From positions 1 through 40,340 of IMG/VR virus record IMGVR_UViG_3300035701_002835: a stretch of DNA of 40,340 nt. One strand, 5' to 3'. Positions 2,881 to 29,097 of this stretch are shown in pieces. A model generated the notes under the pieces. It was not told the DNA's origin. It saw nothing but the letters and a program-made list of their open reading frames with translations, and searched no databases. Both the position numbers and the translations under genes were made by a program. The stretch's first letter is position 1. Every line of letters begins with the position of its first letter. This DNA comes from a virus.

Positions 2881-3173
2881 CCATCAATGAAGCTATGGCG
2901 TTAGAGAAAATAGTGCGTGAGAGGTTGGGCGAATTGAGAGATTTACGGTCTAAAGTTGCCGTAAAAACAGAAACACATTGGTATGGCCGGGAGGCCTCCA
3001 ATGATAAGAAAGAAAGTATTGAGCCACAGTTTGATGTTAAAACCGTGGATAAGAAGGTTGTTCAACTTGAGAACTTCCTTTTTAAAATTAGTGCGGCCAT
3101 AAAGCAAACCAATGCACGAACAGATATTGGGTTTGAGGCGAACGTGGACGACCTTCTTGCACCATTAGTGTAA
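2877..3173 (+). CDS. Small coiled-coil protein, DIP1984-like
   Basis: The product is 98 residues, mostly helical. It pairs a leading MTINEAMALEKIVRERLGEL helix with a later VVQLENFLFKISAAIKQTN segment, a layout that recalls the DIP1984 (septicolysin-like) family of unknown function. It is translationally coupled to the methyltransferase (ATGA overlap). No catalytic residues are recognised. The family assignment is from memory of the pattern and is tentative. Confidence 0.6.
   Translation: MTINEAMALEKIVRERLGELRDLRSKVAVKTETHWYGREASNDKKESIEPQFDVKTVDKKVVQLENFLFKISAAIKQTNARTDIGFEANVDDLLAPLV
3092..3104 (+). repeat. 13-bp direct repeat, copy 1 (TGCGGCCATAAAG)
   Basis: The same 13 bases occur again at 3286-3298. 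This copy lies in the coding sequence of the DIP1984-like gene. The two copies bracket the gene end and the RNA-like segment between them. Confidence 0.6.
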
Positions 3174-3177
3174 GAGG

Positions 3178-3231
3178 TCTGAAGCGGGTAGGGTGGTTTG
3201 AATGACAATGGCGAAAGCCTCGCTTATCAGA
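3178..3231 (+). ncRNA. Possible structured RNA in the 3174-3389 gap
   Basis: The gap between two genes contains strong pairing potential. TCTGA (3178-3182) pairs with TCAGA (3227-3231) and AGCG (3183-3186) with CGCT (3221-3224). Inside lies GGC-GAAA-GCC (3210-3219), a stem closed by a GNRA tetraloop. There is no credible reading frame here. The rest of the gap up to 3389 shows no further clear feature except a 13-bp direct repeat. It could be a small RNA, a processing site or the remnant of an intron; nothing decides between these. Confidence 0.35.
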
Positions 3232-3285
3232 TGAGTGGAGACTTTACAGGTCGAAAAATTACAAACTAAAATTGTTGTGTATTGT

Positions 3286-3298
3286 TGCGGCCATAAAG
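3286..3298 (+). repeat. 13-bp direct repeat, copy 2 (TGCGGCCATAAAG)
   Basis: Exact copy of 3092-3104, here in non-coding DNA downstream of the possible structured RNA. A duplication left by an insertion or by slippage is possible; chance cannot be excluded. Confidence 0.6.
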
Positions 3299-3389
3299 TT
3301 TTACTCTGATGTGCTTATTGATGGTTATTAGTTGTTCTCATATTCAAACTTCTCTACTCGCCTCAAGCTCGTTGTCTGAAAGGAATCAA

Positions 3390-5692: not shown

Positions 5693-7495
5693 ATGGAAAA
5701 AGTCCTAGAGTACACAAAAGAGTATCTAAGAACTAAAATACCAGAGTTTAAAATAAAAGGGTCTACCTTTACATGCCCAAAATGTAGAGTATATCCACCA
5801 TCTTGCCACATGATGGCTCAGTCGCATGTCATGTATTGTACAAGGTGCCGTAAAATAGGTACGTTATTTGATTTATATCCTTCTGACATGGTCATTGATG
5901 AAGTATGTAAATTGATGAATCTAAAGCGTCCTAACACAAAAAAGATTGAGCAATTCTTACAGTACTATGGTGATAATCATTTTGATATTGTAGTACTCGC
6001 TAAGAATCAAAAAATCCCGATAGAAAAAGATTGGCTCAATAAAGAACATCGGGATATAACTGACTGGAAGAACTGGTTAGATTGTGGTCTTAATATTGGG
6101 GTTAAGACTGGGCAAAAGAGTAGTATTACAGTCATTGATATAGATACAGGAGAGATTCCAGAAAGTATTCAAAAAGTGTTAGGTACTCCTATTATTCAAC
6201 GTACCAAACAGGGTTGGCATCTATTTTACAAGTATGTAGATTTACCAACCACGAGAATTGATGACCTTAAGATTGATATTTTGAATGATGGAAAACAATG
6301 TGTTGTGTACCCTTCTGTCGTAGAAGGTATTGAACGGGACTTCCAAGGAGAATTTATATTAACAGAAATGCCTACGGCATTAAAGACCTTGCTTGAAGAA
6401 AAACTAAGTGTTCCCGTTCGTACTTTCTCCGAAAAAATGGCTGAAGAAATTCAGAGTGGAGATTTTAGTTTTGATTTGATAAAAGAAGGTAACCGACACA
6501 ACATCTTTATGCATCTTGGAGGGATATTACGGAAAGAATTGAATATCGCTCAAACAGAAAATGTGTTGCGTATTTTCAATTCTCATTTTTGCAACCCAAG
6601 ATTAGACCAAAGGGACTTTACTGCTATCGTCAAAAGTTTAGACCGTTACGACGTTTTTGATGACAGAGAGTTAGCTAGTAAAGTATTGAACTATTTACGA
6701 GTGGTAGAAGAAACAAGTGCTAGAGATGTTAAAGACGCACTCGGAGAGAAAAAAGAACGAATTGATAAAGTTTTAAGTTATTTGGTTAAAGAAGGTTATA
6801 TTATTAAGAAGTCCCGTGGTATCTTCCAAGTTCTCAAGAAAGCAGAATGGAAAGAAGTGTTGATTGAAGAAGATAAACGTATCAACTGGAAGATGCCATA
6901 CTTCTACGATAAAGCGATATTCAGATATGGTGATATGATTATTATTGGCGGTACACCAAAAGTCGGGAAAACTCATATCGCTATGAATATTGCCAAACAG
7001 TTTGTTAACCAAGGTATCACCCCGTACTATGTATCATTAGAGAGTGGTAATAGATTTATCTCTATTGCGTTGACATTGGGATTGAAACCTGGGGATTTTA
7101 AGTGGTGTATACATTTTAACCCTCAGCAAATCGAATTAGAAAAGAACGCTGTTACTATTATTGATTGGTTACTTCCTAATGATTATTCTGAAACTGATAA
7201 GTTGTTTAAACACTTTGCAGAACAATTAGTCAAAAATGGTGGTATCTTGATTGTGTTTGTTCAGCTCAAATATGACGGGAAATTCTTCGCTGAGAATATG
7301 ATAAGTATGTTCCCAGCCTTGATTACCCGCTACTTATATGACGCTGAACACGAAGGAGAAAGCGGTCATTTCACATTAGATTATATACGAGAACCACTAG
7401 AAAAGAAAAAGAGAGAAAAGATACCGTGTCGGTATCTGTTTGAAACTAAAGAACTTAAAAGGGTGGATGAAGATGAAGAAATTAATTCAATATAA
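5693..7495 (+). CDS. Primase-helicase fusion: zinc finger + AEP PrimPol + RecA-like helicase
   Basis: A 600-residue replication protein. A zinc finger (C28-x2-C31 and C49-x2-C52) is followed by an archaeo-eukaryotic primase domain (about 100-235) with the DID acidic pair at 149-151 and GWHLFYK at 174-180. A winged-helix-like segment (about 325-380) leads to a RecA-like ATPase with Walker A GGTPKVGKTH at 419-428. It would both prime and unwind at the fork. This differs from the T4 layout (separate gp41 helicase and DnaG-type gp61) and recalls PrimPol-helicases of plasmids and some phages. The start ATG follows CCGAGGATAA; the end overlaps the next gene. Confidence 0.9.
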   Translation: MEKVLEYTKEYLRTKIPEFKIKGSTFTCPKCRVYPPSCHMMAQSHVMYCTRCRKIGTLFDLYPSDMVIDEVCKLMNLKRPNTKKIEQFLQYYGDNHFDIVVLAKNQKIPIEKDWLNKEHRDITDWKNWLDCGLNIGVKTGQKSSITVIDIDTGEIPESIQKVLGTPIIQRTKQGWHLFYKYVDLPTTRIDDLKIDILNDGKQCVVYPSVVEGIERDFQGEFILTEMPTALKTLLEEKLSVPVRTFSEKMAEEIQSGDFSFDLIKEGNRHNIFMHLGGILRKELNIAQTENVLRIFNSHFCNPRLDQRDFTAIVKSLDRYDVFDDRELASKVLNYLRVVEETSARDVKDALGEKKERIDKVLSYLVKEGYIIKKSRGIFQVLKKAEWKEVLIEEDKRINWKMPYFYDKAIFRYGDMIIIGGTPKVGKTHIAMNIAKQFVNQGITPYYVSLESGNRFISIALTLGLKPGDFKWCIHFNPQQIELEKNAVTIIDWLLPNDYSETDKLFKHFAEQLVKNGGILIVFVQLKYDGKFFAENMISMFPALITRYLYDAEHEGESGHFTLDYIREPLEKKKREKIPCRYLFETKELKRVDEDEEINSI

Positions 7496-13436: not shown

Positions 13437-14936
13437 ATGGCAATTTCGAAAAACGCTTCAAAGTTATTAAAAGACCGTTACTGCCACCAAAACGAACACC
13501 CTAAGGAAGTTTATCCTAGAGTAGCTAATGCTCTGTCTTTAGGTGACACTAAGTTTGAGAAGAAGTTAGCGAAAGTCATGGAAGATGGTGCATTTTTACC
13601 AAACTCTCCATGTATTCGTAATGCTGGTATTAAAAAAGGTATGCTTCATGCGTGTTTCGTACTTCCTATCAATGATGATATGGAGAGTATCACCAACGCT
13701 TTGAAAGATATGATGATTATCTTCAAGAACGGTGGTGGCGTAGGAATTAATTTCAGTAAATTAAGACCTAAAGAAGCTATGTTATCTGGTGGAGGTTCAT
13801 CTTCTGGTGTCGTATCATTCATGTCTTTATTTAACACCGCTACTGAAGTTGTCAAACAAGGTGGTTTTAGGCGTGGTGCTTTAATGGGGATTTTGAATTT
13901 TGAACATGCAGAGATTCTAGAGTTTGTGCGTAGTAAGTTGACAGGGCAATTAACAAACTTTAATATTTCTGTATTGGTTAGTGATGCGTTTATGGAAAAA
14001 GTAGAGAAAGGAGAGACAATAGATTTAAAAAATCCACAAGATGATAAAGTATGGGCTACGATTAATGCCAAAACTATCTTTGATGTTATTTGTTTTAGTG
14101 CGTGGAATAGTGGTGACCCTGGGTTTTTATTCTATGATAGAATTAACAAAGACAATCCACTATATCCTAAGATTAAAATTAAAACAACTAATCCTTGTGG
14201 AGAGGTACCTCTTCCTGAGTATGGTGCTTGTTGTTTAGGGTCTATCAACATCTCTAAGTTTGTCCATGGTGGTAAATTTAGATTCAATGTTTTTGCTGAT
14301 ACATTAGAAATTGCGACAAGAGCGTTGCGTAACAATAATGCTATCTCTTGGTATCCTCTACCTCAGATTACAAAAACAATGAAAGAGTTAGACCCAATCG
14401 GGGTAGGTATTATGGGGTTTGCTGATACGTTGATTATGCTTGGTATTTATTATGATAGTGATGATTGTTTAAAGTTTATTGATGAGCTAGGTAAAATCTA
14501 TAAAGAAGTAACAGATAGAGTAGCACCTAAATGTTTTTATCGTAGAATCATTGCACCAACAGGGAGTTTGAGTATTCTTGCTGATTGCAGTAGTGGTATT
14601 GAACCTGTCTTTGAAACTACGTTTGAGAGACATTTAACGGTAGGCATTATTGAAGAAACTAGAAATATATATAAATCAAAGTATGTAAGAACCGCTCATC
14701 AAGTAGCACCTGAGTGGCATTTGAAAATACAAGCTCAATGGCAAAATTGGTTAGATGGTGCGTGTAGTAAAACGGTCAATCTACCTAATGATGCAAGTGT
14801 TGATACAGTTAAGAAAATATATATGGATGCCTGGAAAGCAAAGGTAAAGGGGATTACCGTTTTTAGAGATGGTTCTAAAGAAGGTGTACTTAGAAAAAAA
14901 ATAGGAAAATGTGACGATGAAGGCTGTCACCTGTAA
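13437..14936 (+). CDS. Class II (adenosylcobalamin-dependent) ribonucleotide reductase
   Basis: The 499-residue enzyme makes deoxyribonucleotides. Visible features are C73 in MLHACFVLP (reducible cysteine), the GGGVGINFS substrate loop near 99-107, NPCGE at 252-256 with the radical cysteine C254, ACCLGSIN with the partner cysteine near 265, and a C-terminal CDDEGC pair for re-reduction. The ending KGITVFRDGSKEGVL is typical of NrdJ. No small radical-generating subunit gene is nearby, which supports class II. It lacks an N-terminal ATP cone and is short for bacterial NrdJ, as in other phages. AGGAGG precedes the start. The host would have to supply B12. Confidence 0.9.
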   Translation: MAISKNASKLLKDRYCHQNEHPKEVYPRVANALSLGDTKFEKKLAKVMEDGAFLPNSPCIRNAGIKKGMLHACFVLPINDDMESITNALKDMMIIFKNGGGVGINFSKLRPKEAMLSGGGSSSGVVSFMSLFNTATEVVKQGGFRRGALMGILNFEHAEILEFVRSKLTGQLTNFNISVLVSDAFMEKVEKGETIDLKNPQDDKVWATINAKTIFDVICFSAWNSGDPGFLFYDRINKDNPLYPKIKIKTTNPCGEVPLPEYGACCLGSINISKFVHGGKFRFNVFADTLEIATRALRNNNAISWYPLPQITKTMKELDPIGVGIMGFADTLIMLGIYYDSDDCLKFIDELGKIYKEVTDRVAPKCFYRRIIAPTGSLSILADCSSGIEPVFETTFERHLTVGIIEETRNIYKSKYVRTAHQVAPEWHLKIQAQWQNWLDGACSKTVNLPNDASVDTVKKIYMDAWKAKVKGITVFRDGSKEGVLRKKIGKCDDEGCHL

Positions 14937-18420: not shown

Positions 18421-18589
18421 AGTACGATGTAGAAAATGCAGACAAAGGTTCGTATGGGAAGGACCGAAAGAACAATTAAAAGAATGTATTTTATGCCATT
18501 CAACCATGATAGATACAACAATGCGTGGTGTTTGTATTCACTTAGATGATGATTCAGAAAAAGAAGGAGTATCGGAAAATGACGCTTAA
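18413..18589 (+). CDS. 58-residue zinc-ribbon protein
   Basis: CAGGAGGACGTAC precedes ATG 18413. C6-x2-C9 (RCRKC) and C25-x2-C28 (CILCH) make a complete zinc ribbon, followed by an acidic tail. It overlaps the MazG/HNH gene start by 11 bases. Function unknown. Confidence 0.55.
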   Translation: MHRVRCRKCRQRFVWEGPKEQLKECILCHSTMIDTTMRGVCIHLDDDSEKEGVSENDA

Positions 18590-19394
18590 AGAATTGTGTA
18601 AAATATCGCATCAAGTAGCAGTTGAAAAAGGTTTTTGGGATGTTGATAGAAATAAAGCAGAACTTCTCGCTTTAATACAAAGTGAAGTATCCGAGGCATT
18701 AGAGAGTTTAAGAGAAGGTAATCATCATCTTTTACCTAAAACAGAACCTCCCAAAGAAGAAATATGGAAAGATATTAAAGATTGGGAATCATATTATATG
18801 GTTTCAAATCTTGGGAATGTTCGCTCATTAAACATGACAGTAGTTTGTCAATTAAAAAAATATAAAAAAGAAGGGAGAGTGTTAAAAGCGGGGATTGGTG
18901 GAACTGGGTATTACACAGTTTCTTTGAAAGGAAAAACTCACAAAGTTTCTCGTTTGGTGGCCGAGGCTTTTATTTCTAATCCAGACCATAAAAAATATGT
19001 TAATCATATCAATGGGAATAAATTAGATGATAATGTTAATAATCTTGAGTGGGTCACTTCTAGTGAAAATAATACCCACGCACTCAAAACAGGTCTGAGA
19101 AATATGGATAAAAAATTATCCATAGAAGATAAATTATCTATTTTATCAGCTTTTAAATATGATAAAAAATCTTTAAAAGAATTAGCGAAAAAATATAAAG
19201 TTAATATTACAAGTATAAAAAGAGCAAAACATGTCGCTGAAAAAGAATTAAAATCGTTTGAAATGGAAATCTCAGATGTCTTCATTCGTCTTGGAGATAT
19301 GTGTGAAGCTCTTGGAATAGATATAGAGTGGCAAATTAACTCAAAAATATCTTATAATAAAACTCGTCCGCATAAACATGGAAAGGAGTTTTAA
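18579..19394 (+). CDS. MazG-like nucleotide pyrophosphohydrolase with an in-frame NUMOD4-HNH endonuclease insertion
   Basis: 271 residues from ATG 18579. Residues 1-50 are a MazG-type N-terminus with the first metal motif E36-x2-E39 (QSEVSEA). Residues about 222-271 are the C-terminal half with ExxD (E230...D233, FEMEISDVF) and the NKTRPHKHGKEF tail seen in phage MazG proteins. In between, about 60-170 is a NUMOD4-HNH homing endonuclease (EIWKDIKDWESYYMVSNLGN; NHINGNKLDDNVNNLEWVT) followed by a helix-turn-helix-like part (LKELAKKYKVNITSIKRAKH). The reading frame is open throughout. No intein splice residues are seen at the borders, so it reads as a domain insertion splitting the catalytic motif. 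Confidence 0.9.
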   Translation: MTLKELCKISHQVAVEKGFWDVDRNKAELLALIQSEVSEALESLREGNHHLLPKTEPPKEEIWKDIKDWESYYMVSNLGNVRSLNMTVVCQLKKYKKEGRVLKAGIGGTGYYTVSLKGKTHKVSRLVAEAFISNPDHKKYVNHINGNKLDDNVNNLEWVTSSENNTHALKTGLRNMDKKLSIEDKLSILSAFKYDKKSLKELAKKYKVNITSIKRAKHVAEKELKSFEMEISDVFIRLGDMCEALGIDIEWQINSKISYNKTRPHKHGKEF

Positions 19395-19604
19395 ATGTGG
19401 CAATCTATATTAAAAATCATTGAGGTCATAGCAAGTCAATTTGACCCTGAATTAAAAAAGAAACGATATCGGGTAAAACTAACACAATTGAAAGATGAGA
19501 AAAAGAAACTTATGAAGATAGTACCTTGTACTTCAAAGATATCCAAACGATTAGAACAGATAGAAACTGAAATGAAAAATATAGAACTTTACTTGCAAAG
19601 TTAG
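19395..19604 (+). CDS. Small basic coiled-coil protein
   Basis: 69 residues starting immediately after the MazG/HNH stop; AAAGGAG lies in that gene's end. The N-terminus is mildly hydrophobic (ILKIIEVIASQF) and the rest is a Lys-rich coiled coil. It resembles small phage proteins of unknown role. A spanin-like function with the next lipoprotein is conceivable but the N-terminus is too weak for a clear membrane anchor. Confidence 0.55.
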   Translation: MWQSILKIIEVIASQFDPELKKKRYRVKLTQLKDEKKKLMKIVPCTSKISKRLEQIETEMKNIELYLQS

Positions 19605-19820: not shown

Positions 19821-20189
19821 ATGAATAAGAAAACAGATAAGATATTTGGTTACGAACTCCTACTAAACGTCTATGATTGTGATTTAGATGTGTTACAATC
19901 AAAAGAAAAGTTAACCGAGTATGTAACAGAACTGTGCAAACTAATAGATATGAAAAAGTATGGGGAGACTTTGCTTGAATATTTCGGTACTGCTAAAGCT
20001 CATACTAAAGGATATTCATTGATGCAGTTTATTGAAACGAGTGCTATCATTGGTCATTTTTCTGAGTTTTGGAAGATAGCTTATATTAATATCTTTTCAT
20101 GCCAACCATATGACCACAAGAAAGCAAAGGTATTCACTAAAAAGTTTTTTAACGCAAAATCTATTACAGCCAAACTTATTGTACGATGA
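19821..20189 (+). CDS. S-adenosylmethionine decarboxylase-like protein
   Basis: 122 residues, the length of bacterial SpeD (class 1B). Aligned by eye with SpeD, the self-cleavage serine (S74 in IETSAIIGH), the active-site His (H79) and the catalytic Cys (C94 in NIFSCQP) are all present, while the usual Glu and His flanking the serine are Thr and Ala. SpeD makes its own pyruvoyl group and decarboxylates AdoMet for spermidine synthesis. Polyamines neutralise packaged DNA, so a phage use is plausible. Activity is not certain with the altered flanks. Confidence 0.65.
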   Translation: MNKKTDKIFGYELLLNVYDCDLDVLQSKEKLTEYVTELCKLIDMKKYGETLLEYFGTAKAHTKGYSLMQFIETSAIIGHFSEFWKIAYINIFSCQPYDHKKAKVFTKKFFNAKSITAKLIVR

Positions 20190-24000: not shown

Positions 24001-24154
24001 ACAAACAGGTTACGTTCCTTGTGAATTGTGTGCTGAAGAATATGCTATAGATGCTGTTGGTGGTGTCACACCGGATGGGCGTAGAGGATATTTTTTAGTT
24101 TGCCCAGCATGTAAACAAATAGTATTAGATGAAAGAAGAAAGAGACGAGAATGA
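23981..24154 (+). CDS. 57-residue zinc-ribbon protein
   Basis: C14-x2-C17 (PCELC) and C41-x2-C44 (VCPAC) form a full zinc ribbon, with GYFLV as the connecting strand and a basic tail (DERRKRRE). It overlaps both neighbours. Function unknown. Confidence 0.55.
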   Translation: MIPKKNEQTGYVPCELCAEEYAIDAVGGVTPDGRRGYFLVCPACKQIVLDERRKRRE

Positions 24155-25029
24155 ATAACTGTTTCAATGGGCTCTTAGTAGTAAATGTTGAATTGACTTC
24201 TCGCTGTAATAAATCTTGTTGGATGTGTGGCCGCCGTAAATGGGAACAGATTGAGAAGACTGATTGGGGTGATATGGATAGGGATTTAATGTACAAAACA
24301 TTAAGGCAAATCCCTTCTGGTATTATAGTCCAATTCCATAGTAATGGAGAACCTTTACTGTATCCTCTCTTAGTACAAGCTCTAACTTTTAGACTTGATT
24401 ATATAAGAACTTTGGATACAAATGGGAAACTACTTGTCGAACAAGCCGATTACATTATTGGGCATCTAGAAACCATTACCATTTCAGTTATAGAAAATGA
24501 CCCAGAGCAAGATGAACAATATGAAATAGTCAAGAAATTTTTAGAAATTAAGGGTGATAGGAAACCATTCGTAGTCTATAGGTTGTTAGGAGATGTAGGA
24601 AAACTAGATTCATTACGTCCTCATAAAGAATTAGAAAGTTATGGAACTTATACCTTATTGGCGGATTTAGAAGTCCAACGTAAAGAACGTAGAGAACGTT
24701 GGTACAAATTACCCGGTTTAGTAGCACCGAGAATATTACATAAAGCTATGGGCAGTTTTGGTTATAGTAAAAAAGTAACAATACCTGAACATGGAATTTG
24801 TCTTGATTTATTAAGTCATTTAGTCATTGACAGGTTTGGAGATGTTTATCCCTGTGTAAGATTTAACCCCAATAAATATATGAAATTAGGAAATATTAAA
24901 GAAACGAATTTGATTGATATGTGGAACAGTCCTTATAGATTAGCAACAATTGAACAACATATTAAAGGGAATAGAAAATGTACAGAACTTTGTAGCCAAT
25001 GTGACTTTTATGGAGTACCAACAGGATGA
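24151..25029 (+). CDS. Radical SAM enzyme with SPASM-like C-terminus
   Basis: 292 residues. The CxxxCxxC cluster motif is C19-C23-C26 (SRCNKSCWMC), followed by the HSNGEPLLYP partial-barrel signature. The C-terminal part (CLDL...GDVYPCVRFN...GNI...CTELCSQCDFYG) matches the SPASM/Twitch layout for extra Fe-S clusters. Such enzymes modify peptides, proteins or sugars by radical chemistry. The 41-residue gene after it belongs to a small conserved basic type and is not an obvious peptide substrate. It begins the small-molecule block that includes an aminotransferase and a second radical SAM enzyme. Confidence 0.85.
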   Translation: MNNCFNGLLVVNVELTSRCNKSCWMCGRRKWEQIEKTDWGDMDRDLMYKTLRQIPSGIIVQFHSNGEPLLYPLLVQALTFRLDYIRTLDTNGKLLVEQADYIIGHLETITISVIENDPEQDEQYEIVKKFLEIKGDRKPFVVYRLLGDVGKLDSLRPHKELESYGTYTLLADLEVQRKERRERWYKLPGLVAPRILHKAMGSFGYSKKVTIPEHGICLDLLSHLVIDRFGDVYPCVRFNPNKYMKLGNIKETNLIDMWNSPYRLATIEQHIKGNRKCTELCSQCDFYGVPTG

Positions 25030-25151
25030 GTATTAAACGTAAAAAACAAGTTAGATGCACCATGTGTTCCCAGTATAAGTGGATGGGAAACAGCAAGAAG
25101 AAAAAAAGAATTCGGGATGTACGTAAAATCCAAAGGGAGTTATATGACTGA
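25026..25151 (+). CDS. 41-residue basic CxxC protein
   Basis: Coupled to the radical SAM gene (ATGA). RCTMCSQYKWMGN with C11-x2-C14, then a Lys/Arg-rich helix. I recognise this pattern as recurrent in phage genomes, function unknown. It overlaps the next start by 8 bases. Confidence 0.55.
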   Translation: MSIKRKKQVRCTMCSQYKWMGNSKKKKRIRDVRKIQRELYD

Positions 25152-25947
25152 TATTCAAGTTAGTTTAGTTGCAAGTGCTGTACGAACAACATCATGGTTA
25201 TCTTTTTATGATTCTTTAAAAGGTAACAATATTAAGTATGAAGTGATTTTTGTTGGTAATAGAAAACCTGATTTTAAACTACCAGAAAACTTTACTTATA
25301 TTTATGCAAATGTTAAACCTGCTCAATGCTATGAAATAGGATTTAGAGCCGCAAAAGGTGAACTTGTGCATTGGACGGCTGATGATGCTGATTATGGCAG
25401 GGCACCAAATCGCAATGGATTAGAGATTGGGTATAATACTTACAAAAAATGTAATAATTATAAGATGATTATCGCTATGAGACCCTACGAAGATGGGAGT
25501 GCTAATGTTTGGAAGTTTCATCATTTCTTTGGCGGTAAAGATAATACCCCAGTTATGGCACCATTTGGATTGATGAGTAAACAATTTATGAATGAGATTG
25601 GTGGATACGATAAAGCATTTATAGGTGGTCAGTCAGAAAACGATTTAGTTATGAGAGCTTTTGAAGCTGGTGGTAGCGTACACGTAGACTTAGAAGCTCA
25701 CTTATGGGTAAATCACCGTTTACATGAAAACCCTAATAAATTTAGAGCTTATTATAAGTGGGATAGAGAAGTATTAGAGAACGCCTGGGTACCTACGGGT
25801 TATGGGTCTTATAATGATAGGTCATTAAATTGGGACCAAGTACAAATTTCAGCAACACGCTTAAGACCTTTTGACCCGTTTGTTGAAACAAAAGATTGGA
25901 CTACTGTTAGTCAAGGTCCGAAAGGAGATAATGTGCCATGGAATTAA
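25144..25947 (+). CDS. GT2-like glycosyltransferase
   Basis: 267 residues from ATG 25144 (GGGAGTTAT upstream). Strand VIFVGNRKPDFKLPENF, then VKPAQCYEIGFRAAKG and HWTADDADY give the GT-A Rossmann core with an Asp-rich metal site; GGYDKAFIGGQSENDLVMRA is the acceptor region. The protein at 36917-37645 on the other strand is clearly related (KPAQC.EI.FR.AKG and W..DD). Both probably build the same glycan with the NeuA/NeuB-type genes. Confidence 0.75.
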   Translation: MTDIQVSLVASAVRTTSWLSFYDSLKGNNIKYEVIFVGNRKPDFKLPENFTYIYANVKPAQCYEIGFRAAKGELVHWTADDADYGRAPNRNGLEIGYNTYKKCNNYKMIIAMRPYEDGSANVWKFHHFFGGKDNTPVMAPFGLMSKQFMNEIGGYDKAFIGGQSENDLVMRAFEAGGSVHVDLEAHLWVNHRLHENPNKFRAYYKWDREVLENAWVPTGYGSYNDRSLNWDQVQISATRLRPFDPFVETKDWTTVSQGPKGDNVPWN

Positions 25948-26090
25948 AACATGCTGTACCTATTTCTGTACGTTGTACAAAATGTGAAACGATGAAAGAC
26001 CCTGTGCAAGACAGATGTAAAAAAATAAAAGACCATACTTGGATTTGTGCTAAGTGTGACGAAAGTACTCATAGTCGGAGGACGAAATGA
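25938..26090 (+). CDS. 50-residue zinc-ribbon protein
   Basis: C13-x2-C16 (RCTKC) and C37-x2-C40 (ICAKC), with an extra C27, form a zinc ribbon. AAAGGAGATAATGTGCC precedes the ATG. The stop overlaps the next ATG. Function unknown. Confidence 0.55.
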   Translation: MELKHAVPISVRCTKCETMKDPVQDRCKKIKDHTWICAKCDESTHSRRTK

Positions 26091-26440
26091 AAAAGTTTAT
26101 TTTAACATTAGCGTTCTTATTTTGCTGTCATCTCGCATATGCGTATGACTTAGAAACATTACTTGAAGCACGATATCGTAATGTTGAAATTGTCACAAAA
26201 GATGGTTCTAAATTCGAAGGATATGTTTGGGATGTTATAAAAGTTATTGAAGATGAGGGTAATAAAGATAAGATAATCAAGTATAGTATTAATAGTATGG
26301 ATATTGGTAAGATTGATGTACGAGGTAATGAATTTACTAGTATCACACGTACTAAATATTATCTTATCATCCGTAAAGGAGTTGTCGAATATCAAGTAGA
26401 TAGTGACAATATATCGTTATTAGGCATACAAAAATGGTAA
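26087..26440 (+). CDS. Exported protein with a cleavable signal peptide
   Basis: 117 residues. MKKFILTLAFLFCCHLAYA is a standard Sec signal with an AYA cleavage site before YD. The mature part is beta-rich (VEIVTKDGSKFEGYVWDV; later IGKIDVRGNEFTSITRT), somewhat like a small beta-barrel. It would act in the periplasm or outside the cell. Role unknown; early host-surface modification is one option. Confidence 0.65.
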   Translation: MKKFILTLAFLFCCHLAYAYDLETLLEARYRNVEIVTKDGSKFEGYVWDVIKVIEDEGNKDKIIKYSINSMDIGKIDVRGNEFTSITRTKYYLIIRKGVVEYQVDSDNISLLGIQKW

Positions 26441-26449
26441 GGAGATAAT

Positions 26450-26671
26450 ATGTCATCTTCAAAGAGATATATGGATTTAGGAAAACGCATTAAAAATAAA
26501 AAACATAAATTAGAACAACGTTTAAAAAAGATTGAACGGGCTAGAGCAACAGAACCTGTGATTAATCCTAACACTAAACAACTACCAAAACGTAGTTCTA
26601 ATCCTATCGAGAATACAATCAAAGCATGTCCTATTGGTAGGAAGAGAGAAAGAGCAGGAAGATGGGTGTAA
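26450..26671 (+). CDS. Small basic coiled-coil protein
   Basis: 73 residues; AAGGAGATAAT precedes the ATG. A Lys/Arg-rich helix (KRIKNKKHKLEQRLKKIERA) and a proline-containing tail. Its end overlaps the aminotransferase start by 10 bases. Function unknown. Confidence 0.5.
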   Translation: MSSSKRYMDLGKRIKNKKHKLEQRLKKIERARATEPVINPNTKQLPKRSSNPIENTIKACPIGRKRERAGRWV

Positions 26672-27894
26672 AAGCTATTGAACTAAAGACTACTATTCCT
26701 CACCCGCAAGACGTAAAAGATTATGCTACGTTTATGAAGTATGAAGCTAGGTCTATGCAGGGGCAACTGCCCATTGTTTGGCATAAAGCAAGATACTGTA
26801 ATGTTTGGGATAGATATGGAAATAAATTTCTAGATTTTACTTCTGGTATTGCTGTAGCTAACGCAGGGCATGGGAACTATAATATTGCTAAAGGGATAGA
26901 ACACTTATTACATCGTCCTCTTATGCATAGTTATACCTTTGCTACTGATGTTCGGTATTGGTTTTTACGAGAATTGATTGAAACGTGTTATCCGGGTGGG
27001 AAAGCGTTTTTAGTTTCAGCTGGTACTGAAGCCACCGAAGTAGCTTGTAAGCTGATGAGAATGTATGGTTTACCTAAACGTTCTTTTATAGTATCTTTTA
27101 AAGGTGCTATGCATGGGAGAACGTCTTTAGCAGAGAATTTAAAAGGTAATACTTTGATGAATGGTGGTTGGGCAAGTAAAGATTGGAACGTAGAATGTAT
27201 GGAGTTTCCTAATAACAATACCCCATTTTTAGGATTTAGGAAACCAGAAGATGTTGCAGGTGTTATTATTGAATCGTATCAAGGTTGGAGTGCGAGATTT
27301 TTTAATCCTAAGTTTATTCAAGACTTAGTAAAATATTGTAAAGAACATGATATTTTAGTTTGTTTCGATGAAATACAAGGTGGGTTTGGACGAACGGGAA
27401 AGATGTTTGCGTATGAGCATTATGGGATTGAACGACCCGATTTAATCTGTATTGGAAAAGGGGTAAGCAGTAGTCTACCTCTTTCAGGAGTTATTGGTAG
27501 AGCCGATTTAATTGATTTACCTGAAATGGGTAGCATGAGTTCTACACACTCGGCAAATCCTTTATCTTGTATCGCAGGATTAAAAAACTTATTAGAGATA
27601 CATGATAAGCATCTTGTACAGCAATCACATTATTTAGGAGATATACTTCATTCGTTTTTAAGACAAAAATTTGGTAAAAAGTATGAGATTAATGGAGAAG
27701 GATTACTATTAGGTCTTATCACCGAAACTGAAGAAGAAGCAACTCAAATTGTATGGGAGTGTTTTAAACGAGGGTTACTAACAATTTGGACGCATAAGAA
27801 TAGCGTAAAATTAGCACCACCTTTAACTATAACTGAAGCTGAGTTAGCAGAAGGACTGGGGGTATTAAATGAAGTGTTACTTATGCGGGCATGA
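26662..27894 (+). CDS. Class III PLP-dependent aminotransferase
   Basis: 410 residues, normal for the family. It shows SAGTEATEVACKLMR (PLP phosphate site), DEIQGGFGRTGKMFA at 236-250 with the Asp that contacts PLP nitrogen, and the Schiff-base lysine K266 in CIGKGVSSSLP. The family includes ornithine, GABA and glutamate-1-semialdehyde aminotransferases, so the substrate is open. In this context it probably aminates a sugar-like or small carbonyl compound. Its end overlaps the methyltransferase start by 26 bases. Confidence 0.9.
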   Translation: MGVKAIELKTTIPHPQDVKDYATFMKYEARSMQGQLPIVWHKARYCNVWDRYGNKFLDFTSGIAVANAGHGNYNIAKGIEHLLHRPLMHSYTFATDVRYWFLRELIETCYPGGKAFLVSAGTEATEVACKLMRMYGLPKRSFIVSFKGAMHGRTSLAENLKGNTLMNGGWASKDWNVECMEFPNNNTPFLGFRKPEDVAGVIIESYQGWSARFFNPKFIQDLVKYCKEHDILVCFDEIQGGFGRTGKMFAYEHYGIERPDLICIGKGVSSSLPLSGVIGRADLIDLPEMGSMSSTHSANPLSCIAGLKNLLEIHDKHLVQQSHYLGDILHSFLRQKFGKKYEINGEGLLLGLITETEEEATQIVWECFKRGLLTIWTHKNSVKLAPPLTITEAELAEGLGVLNEVLLMRA

Positions 27895-28690
27895 ACAATT
27901 TAAAGTTGTAAGACATGGGGTAAGAACAGACCCAGATAGCCAAGTTTTGATATGTGTACATTGCGGTCTAATTTTTCTTGGCGAATACAAGATAAATTAT
28001 CGAGACAATGAGATGTTAGAAATAGATTCTTCTGATACAATGGATGGTGCTGATACGGAACGAAGATTTGAACATTATAAACGGTGGTTTCAAAACTCTC
28101 GTATTTTAGATTTTGGATGTGGTAAAGGGTCTTTGTTAACGAAACTAAAAACAGATAGATTAGTAAATTCAACCGAAGTATATGCATTTGAACCAAATCG
28201 TATTTTTGCCAATTTGTTAGCTAACCAATTCCCATTATATACTCAATTAGATATAGTACCTAATAGACATTTTAATATTATCACATTATTTCATGTAATA
28301 GAACATCTTGAAGACCCTATCGAAATATTAAATACTCTATATGATAAGTTACTACCGCAAGGGAAAATCATCATTGAAGTTCCTAATCATGACGAAGCTC
28401 TTTTTAAACTATATAATTGTTCAGCTTATAACGAGTTTATGTATACGCCATATCACAACTTTTATTTTACAACAAAAACTCTCAAAAAATTATTAGACAA
28501 AACTTTGTTTGATGTTGAATTTATTCGTATAGAACAACGTTATGAATTAAGTAATCATCTTCATTGGTTAGCGAAAGGTCAACCCAATGGTCATCTGCAA
28601 TGGCCATTTCTCGATAGTATTGATTATAAACGTCATATCGAATCAATAGGCATGGGAGATACGCTAACGGCGGTGGTGAAAAAATGTTAA
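27869..28690 (+). CDS. AdoMet methyltransferase with N-terminal zinc ribbon
   Basis: 273 residues. A zinc ribbon (C3-x2-C6, CYLCG; C29-x2-C32, CVHCG) leads to a class I methyltransferase with motif I ILDFGCGKGSLL near 95-106, ITLFHVIEHLEDP and GKIIIEVPNHDE. This zinc-plus-methyltransferase arrangement is shared with sugar C-methyltransferases of the Methyltransf_23/13 groups. It may methylate a nucleotide sugar or an intermediate from the neighbouring enzymes. Confidence 0.8.
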   Translation: MKCYLCGHEQFKVVRHGVRTDPDSQVLICVHCGLIFLGEYKINYRDNEMLEIDSSDTMDGADTERRFEHYKRWFQNSRILDFGCGKGSLLTKLKTDRLVNSTEVYAFEPNRIFANLLANQFPLYTQLDIVPNRHFNIITLFHVIEHLEDPIEILNTLYDKLLPQGKIIIEVPNHDEALFKLYNCSAYNEFMYTPYHNFYFTTKTLKKLLDKTLFDVEFIRIEQRYELSNHLHWLAKGQPNGHLQWPFLDSIDYKRHIESIGMGDTLTAVVKKC

Positions 28691-29097
28691 ACTTTCGTCA
28701 TACTTGTATTGTCGTATTAGATTTGAATAGTGCGTTAGAGTTTTATGTTAGTAAGTTAGGCATGAAAATTATTGATTGTGAAACTTTAGAAGGTCCTTAT
28801 CCAGATGAACTATTAGGTATCAAGAACGTTCGATTAACTTACGTTAAATTAGATTTTTTAAATCAGCTTCCTCCACGATTTGAATTACATTATTATGAAA
28901 ATCCTATAGTCGAAGATGTCATTCCTTTTGGTCACATCTCATTAACAACAGAAAACTTAGATGTAGAGTATGAACGACTTAAAAAATTAGGTGTGAACTT
29001 TGTTTCACCACCTATTGTTGCACCAGATACAGGACGAAAAGTGTGTTTCTGTACAGACCCTGACTTCAACTTGATTGAACTTGTGGAGGACGTATAA
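28684..29097 (+). CDS. VOC superfamily (glyoxalase-like) protein
   Basis: 137 residues. Two beta-alpha-beta-beta-beta units: FRHTCIVVLDLNSALEFYVS with H5 as a likely metal ligand, FELHYYENP with a Glu, FGHISLTTENLDVEYERLKK with a His and FNLIELVED with a final Glu. Metal-dependent VOC enzymes isomerise, epimerise or oxidise small molecules. It overlaps the methyltransferase by 7 bases and probably works on the same pathway. Confidence 0.8.
   Translation: MLNFRHTCIVVLDLNSALEFYVSKLGMKIIDCETLEGPYPDELLGIKNVRLTYVKLDFLNQLPPRFELHYYENPIVEDVIPFGHISLTTENLDVEYERLKKLGVNFVSPPIVAPDTGRKVCFCTDPDFNLIELVEDV

Follow-up and report, generated by a model that had tools for sequence, protein, structure and literature searches.

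The window analysed here, that is, the whole 40,340-nucleotide stretch of DNA of the virus record IMGVR_UViG_3300035701_002835, carries a small phage MazG gene (18579-19394, + strand) that is complete but split around a whole NUMOD4-HNH_3-helix-turn-helix (HTH) endonuclease. Probably, as judged from the sequence, a free-standing HNH gene has inserted in frame in a surface loop of mazG and is translated with it as one 271-residue protein, from which it is not removed. A sequence-only reading of this DNA had already placed an endonuclease in frame inside a MazG-like enzyme, and Pfam, PHROG, tblastn with the joined halves and split profile matches agree with it.

Gene organisation and identity of the MazG part

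The open reading frame runs without interruption from the ATG at 18579 to the TAA at 19392-19394, encodes 271 aa and is open on both sides of the insert through the YNKTRPHKHGKEF tail, as had been noted before; the next gene begins at 19395, directly after the mazG stop. A further in-frame ATG lies upstream at 18546, and 18579 was taken as the start because the AGGAG sequence sits 9 nt before it.

Table 1 Features of the split mazG gene (positions in the window).
Feature	Position	Strand	Basis
Shine-Dalgarno-like AGGAG for mazG start	18565..18569	+	sequence
MazG N-terminal half, residues 1-53, helix 1 and helix 2 with ExxE	18579..18737	+	alignment A9, 34 intact MazG
ExxE metal-ligand motif, E36 and E39	18684..18695	+	in at least 95% of 34 intact MazG
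Inserted element, residues 54-222, 169 aa, 507 nt (borders inferred)	18738..19244	+	homology, loop spacing, lower GC
NUMOD4, residues 61-116	18759..18926	+	Pfam PF07463, 7.2e-12
HNH_3 nuclease domain, residues 122-165	18942..19073	+	Pfam PF13392, 1.3e-7; I-HmuI alignment; column statistics
Endonuclease C-terminal HTH, residues ~182-217	19122..19229	+	HTH ends of free-standing relatives; AlphaFold2 helices
MazG C-terminal half, residues 223-271, helix 3 with ExxD, helix 4, YNKTRPHKHGKEF tail	19245..19391	+	
ExxD metal-ligand motif, E230 and D233	19266..19277	+	in at least 95% of 34 intact MazG

Two PHROG families annotated as pyrophosphatase, 3301 and 9236, matched the protein (4e-27 and 3e-21), each in two stretches; the Pfam MazG match was weak and lay at the C end (E 0.025). 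When the two halves were joined (residues 1-59 + 217-271) and used as a tblastn query, intact MazG was matched in 274 phage records, 168 of them with 80% or more of the query covered at a single location, and plasmid MazG genes were matched likewise. A custom MazG profile made from alignment A3 matched with its positions 1-55 before the HNH (E 4e-18) and with its positions 49-103 after it (1.5e-19), and these E-values rule out a chance resemblance to MazG. Since one of the ten rows of A3 was the joined window sequence itself, the independent evidence for MazG comes from the tblastn and PHROG matches.

All four metal ligands (E36, E39, E230 and D233) are kept, at the positions given by the sequence-only reading, and were invariant in the first alignment. 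Eighteen of the 20 near-invariant MazG residues (found in at least 95% of the 34 relatives) are kept as well, the two changes being H34Q and A232S. The MazG part is probably functional.

Position and borders of the insert

The borders were placed in an alignment (A9) of 34 intact phage MazG from IMG/VR and 6 HNH sequences; a larger mix (34 MazG and 36 HNH) was misaligned by MAFFT, whereas A9 aligned properly and was therefore used for AlphaFold2. Both the ExxE and the ExxD helix are whole in the window MazG and the insert lies in the variable loop between them. Thus, the claim that the endonuclease sits inside the catalytic motif holds insofar as it separates the two metal-binding helices, but neither motif helix is itself interrupted. 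The loop from E42 to E230 has 12-41 residues in the 34 intact relatives compared with 187 here, and 18 once the inferred insert is taken out.

In relatives whose loops are of the HLP type or resemble it, a Pro and the E of ExAD are separated by exactly 7 residues (examples are HLP-HLDSVGV-ELAD, HLP-QHDQWQV-ELAD and KIP-EFTGVEA-ELAD). The window MazG has HLLP at residues 50-53, and the 7 residues ELKSFEM stand ahead of EISD. Because of this spacing, residues 54-222 are the simplest insert, and the borders at about 54/222, for which the alignment with intact phage MazG had been proposed, should be accurate to a few residues. The homology to free-standing HNH endonucleases is firm from residue 60 to ~215.

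Origin and condition of the endonuclease

NUMOD4 and HNH_3 were found with 45.8 and 31.6 bits, respectively, at Pfam cut-offs of 23.4 and 24.8. Free-standing phage relatives comprise NUMOD4, HNH_3 and often an HTH; they start with M-EEIWK.. or M-EIWK.., their Met falling at residue 59/60 where the homology of the insert starts, and those in the set used are 163-191 aa long compared with 169 aa for the insert. Since start and length agree with these relatives, the insert is one complete endonuclease ORF that lacks only a start and a stop codon of its own. The GC content of residues 59-217 is 28.5% compared with a window mean of 35.1%, which is the 2nd percentile of equal windows and fits a foreign origin.

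I-HmuI (1U3E) is the sole significant match among solved structures, by sequence and by fold. The catalytic residues H75, N87 and N96 of I-HmuI correspond in the alignment to H143, N155 and N164, which are all kept, as are 34 of the 36 HNH positions conserved at 80% or more in 42 relatives, a value that is average for free-standing relatives. The remaining two near-invariant residues are lost, H124S (His in 41/42 relatives) and N151D (Asn in 42/42), so the nuclease may be impaired and its activity is uncertain.

These two changes, at positions conserved in 98-100% of the 42 relatives, also speak for a decayed or domesticated chimera, with the HNH as an inactive passenger or a DNA-binding domain and MazG either intact or impaired too. 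The single known occurrence and the slightly lowered conservation of the MazG halves (only 1 of the 34 relatives is lower) point the same way, but the kept counterparts of the I-HmuI residues, the conserved positions that remain and the lack of any stop codon or frameshift argue against decay. This explanation overlaps with the preferred one, which leaves HNH activity open; that the HNH is inactive has, in our judgement, a substantial chance, a little below even.

It is very unlikely that two proteins are made, the HNH being produced additionally from an internal start or freed by proteolysis. Although the free-standing relatives are separate genes, no in-frame ATG, GTG, TTG or CTG is present between residues 6 and 74, the latter being already inside NUMOD4, no Shine-Dalgarno-like site with a following start codon was found at the insert border, and there is no stop codon after the HTH. 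With neither an in-frame start nor a Shine-Dalgarno site between residues 6 and 74, the HNH should be producible only within MazG.

Splicing and assembly

A mobile intron outside Rfam, with the HNH as intron ORF and a ribozyme that would remove the insert from the mRNA, is highly improbable. The RNA of the insert does fold somewhat better than shuffled sequences (z -2.9 and -3.2), and better than most free-standing HNH genes tested, but it is within the spread of tiles from the same genome (mean z -1.26, sd 1.8, lowest -6.4). Rfam gave no group I or group II match at E<=1 over 16.5-21.5 kb and none at gathering thresholds across the window, in line with the earlier view that no intron is involved. 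Furthermore, the HNH homology takes up residues 60-215 of the 169-residue insert, which leaves ~40 nt for a ribozyme core, and an intron would not require the frame to stay open across the two borders, as it does.

An error or chimera of metagenome assembly is highly unlikely too: the gene is known from a single IMG/VR contig, but two coincident in-frame joins would be required, both at a loop, and the tail and the downstream gene are intact. An intein, perhaps a divergent one, with a protein that splices itself, is hardly credible. In-frame placement in a metal enzyme is frequent for inteins, but Pfam, PHROG and NCBIfam searches of the protein gave no Hint domain or splicing motif, the border residues (K54, K222 and E223) provide no Cys/Ser at the start, no His-Asn at the end, both as noticed before, and no Cys/Ser/Thr at +1, an insert as long as one free-standing HNH ORF has no space for a splicing domain, and it lies in a variable loop and not in a conserved motif. 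Splicing elements are thus not detectable by these RNA and protein searches, and the insert is presumably unspliced in vivo.

Structure prediction

AlphaFold2 on A9 gave a model with a mean pLDDT of 88. Its pTM of 0.58 is in keeping with domains whose orientation to each other is uncertain. The MazG helices (3-16, 26-46, the ExxD part of 210-244, and 249-261) were predicted in the expected order with pLDDT mostly 95-98, and most of the HNH with 90-97, whereas the linker 48-55 was of low confidence. One continuous helix (210-244) runs from the last helix of the endonuclease into the ExxD helix of MazG. Foldseek matched the model to I-HmuI (1u3e, E 1e-6) in the PDB and to phage NUMOD4/HNH proteins in BFVD; MazG was not matched, which is expected for a split chain, yet does not confirm it. 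AlphaFold2 on a single intact MazG with no MSA gave a poor model, which was left out. Structure prediction had been suggested as a way to see whether the two halves meet around the HNH; as judged by pLDDT, the MazG helices would most likely still pack into a bundle around the insert.

Occurrence in other genomes and a second case

Junction patterns (one N-side and two C-side) brought up no further MazG-HNH gene among the viral_contigs matches listed. Those matches were mostly MazG genes with a chance TTCCA, or chance matches, and the window alone had both domains. A strict, narrow pattern gave 0 matches in genome_contigs, tblastn revealed no MazG-HNH in INPHARED, and a search with PF07463 across 399 genomes from a single phylum gave too sparse a result to be informative. 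A close relative of this virus was not found in viral_contigs by comparison of the DNA polymerase. The search for relatives without the insert, also proposed earlier, yielded intact mazG genes, all of them divergent, and no close relative with an empty site. Homing at the mazG site would thus be represented by one known genome.

Among 183 matches to NUMOD4-HNH ORFs at all loci (the window counted twice), the window and one further locus (L497) alone were nested, i.e. were flanked at either end by long stretches of a recognised host protein; the ~180 others were not embedded in a host protein. Several candidates were rejected on inspection: other ORFs with long N-terminal extensions had ordinary C-termini and no recognised host protein, matches of the Staphylococcus phage K type (query 10-190) were intron-encoded HNH genes in DNA polymerase and not MazG, and a Javan389 match (query 30-171) was an HNH CDS with an N-terminal extension by chance.

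At L497 (IMGVR_UViG_3300026549_000041, ORF 1533-2762, + strand), a NUMOD4-HNH-HTH unit is nested in frame in a phrog_6721 protein, which was matched with 206 bits in two stretches and is present without the insert at two other loci (L543 and L545). The phrog_6721 protein may be ThyX-like; PDB and NCBIfam searches gave no identity. Of 26 near-invariant HNH residues, 25 are retained at L497. By its domain matches, L497 adds an independent example in an unrelated phage protein, and suggests that this route has been used more than once.

Other features of the window and of mazG loci

Besides mazG, the window has several features that are recorded here in their own right. A rod-like hairpin of ~200 nt (3168-3371, z -4.4; the tile at 3001 has z -6.4) lies mostly between two ORFs and matched nothing in Rfam and no phage DNA; an 18-nt direct repeat with a GCGGCCATAAAG core is found at 3087 and 3281. 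The coding tile 6001-6491 also has an unusually stable RNA folding (z -4.6). A compact ribonucleotide reductase large subunit of 499 aa (13437-14936) has barrel-domain matches in three stretches, and a small subunit was not present among the ORFs scanned. A few genes downstream of mazG, an S-adenosylmethionine decarboxylase (19821-20189, Pfam 6e-16) is encoded, which is unexpected in a 40 kb phage. A metabolic-looking run at 24151-29097 (radical SAM/SPASM, aminotransferase, methyltransferase, glyoxalase) stands by nucleotide-sugar transferase-like genes and is possibly a modification pathway.

Two other viruses have endonuclease genes at or near mazG. An HNH gene overlaps the end of the MazG gene in Halovirus HCTV-5 (L005, 1492-2269), and in Enterococcus phage EF_RCK (L460, 792-2005) a free-standing HNH gene is encoded upstream of mazG at a distance of ~0.5 kb. 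Neighbourhoods of mazG may attract endonucleases.

Discussion

According to the usual view, a homing endonuclease can invade a coding sequence without harm to the host gene only by way of an intron or intein. Whether a tolerant loop suffices can be tested directly on a small enzyme with an HNH nested in its frame. MazG can be assayed simply, and the length of its loop varies by nature. We propose that a NUMOD4-HNH homing endonuclease gene lost its start and stop and entered the mazG loop between the metal-binding helices. The HNH would be looped out by a flexible linker on the N-side (~residues 48-60) and by a helix on the C-side that leads straight into the ExxD helix, and both MazG and the HNH would fold, and may be active, in this arrangement. 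If active, the HNH could cut or nick mazG alleles that have no insert, and repair would copy the insert in; past homing of this kind would have relied on the tolerant loop rather than on an intron or intein.

More tentatively, and somewhat short of probable, phages may hold a class of in-frame, unspliced homing endonucleases in permissive enzyme loops, with MazG and the phrog_6721 protein of L497 as members, which use structural tolerance to persist and spread; a single polypeptide may then combine both activities. The arrangement, for which there are only near precedents, suggests that elements of this kind may survive inside genes although they cannot remove themselves. Profile searches and annotation pipelines may label such genes "HNH endonuclease" alone and overlook the host enzyme.

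Comparison with known systems

The arrangement had been thought not to be described, and an in-frame HNH nested in a phage enzyme was indeed not found in the openly licensed texts searched. There are, however, near precedents in an actinophage DNA methylase: the ShiLan domain, an HNH insertion with the signatures of neither an intron nor an intein (PMC11855218; earlier PMC9957025), and a lone LAGLIDADG insertion in the same methylase with no detectable splicing domain (PMC11855218). ShiLan-type insertions are the closest published precedent: as in MazG-HNH, a phage enzyme gene is affected, the host frame stays open and the insert is predicted to loop out (PMC11855218). The ShiLan HNH does not share the methylase frame and depends on a start of its own, whereas the HNH described here shares the MazG frame and would be made only within MazG. 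What remains of the claim of novelty is, therefore, the reading in the host frame and MazG as host. The two systems also differ in host gene and in HNH type, and mobility of ShiLan is backed by population evidence, compared with one genome here.

Another endonuclease without intron or intein in a gene of nucleotide metabolism is mobE in nrdA of Aeromonas phage Aeh1 (Friedrich et al. 2007, as cited in PMC5374615). According to that citing account, nrdA function is kept like that proposed for MazG, but nrdA is split into separate polypeptides that reassemble, whereas MazG-HNH is one continuous polypeptide; such an nrdA split is mentioned in PMC10448857 as well.

I-HmuI and the free-standing NUMOD4-HNH_3 enzymes share domain order, borders and the counterparts of H143, N155 and N164 with the insert. 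The free-standing enzymes are separate genes, whereas the insert is nested in a host protein and has the atypical residues S124 and D151. I-HmuI is encoded in a group I intron. Mitochondrial endonuclease ORFs are inserted in or joined to rps3 as host gene. Endonuclease insertions are also present in mitochondrial cox2, which becomes split (PMC5374615). Both cases resemble MazG-HNH in that an endonuclease ORF lies in or is joined to a host protein gene, but they are organellar and involve other endonuclease families. Finally, Staphylococcus phage IME1318_01 (L542, 1198-2121; ARM67781) has a NUMOD4-HNH-HTH unit and a dUTPase in one polypeptide, like MazG-HNH; there the HNH is fused in frame at the N-terminus of the dUTPase, which related phages have alone, and is thus terminal, whereas the HNH of the window is nested within MazG.
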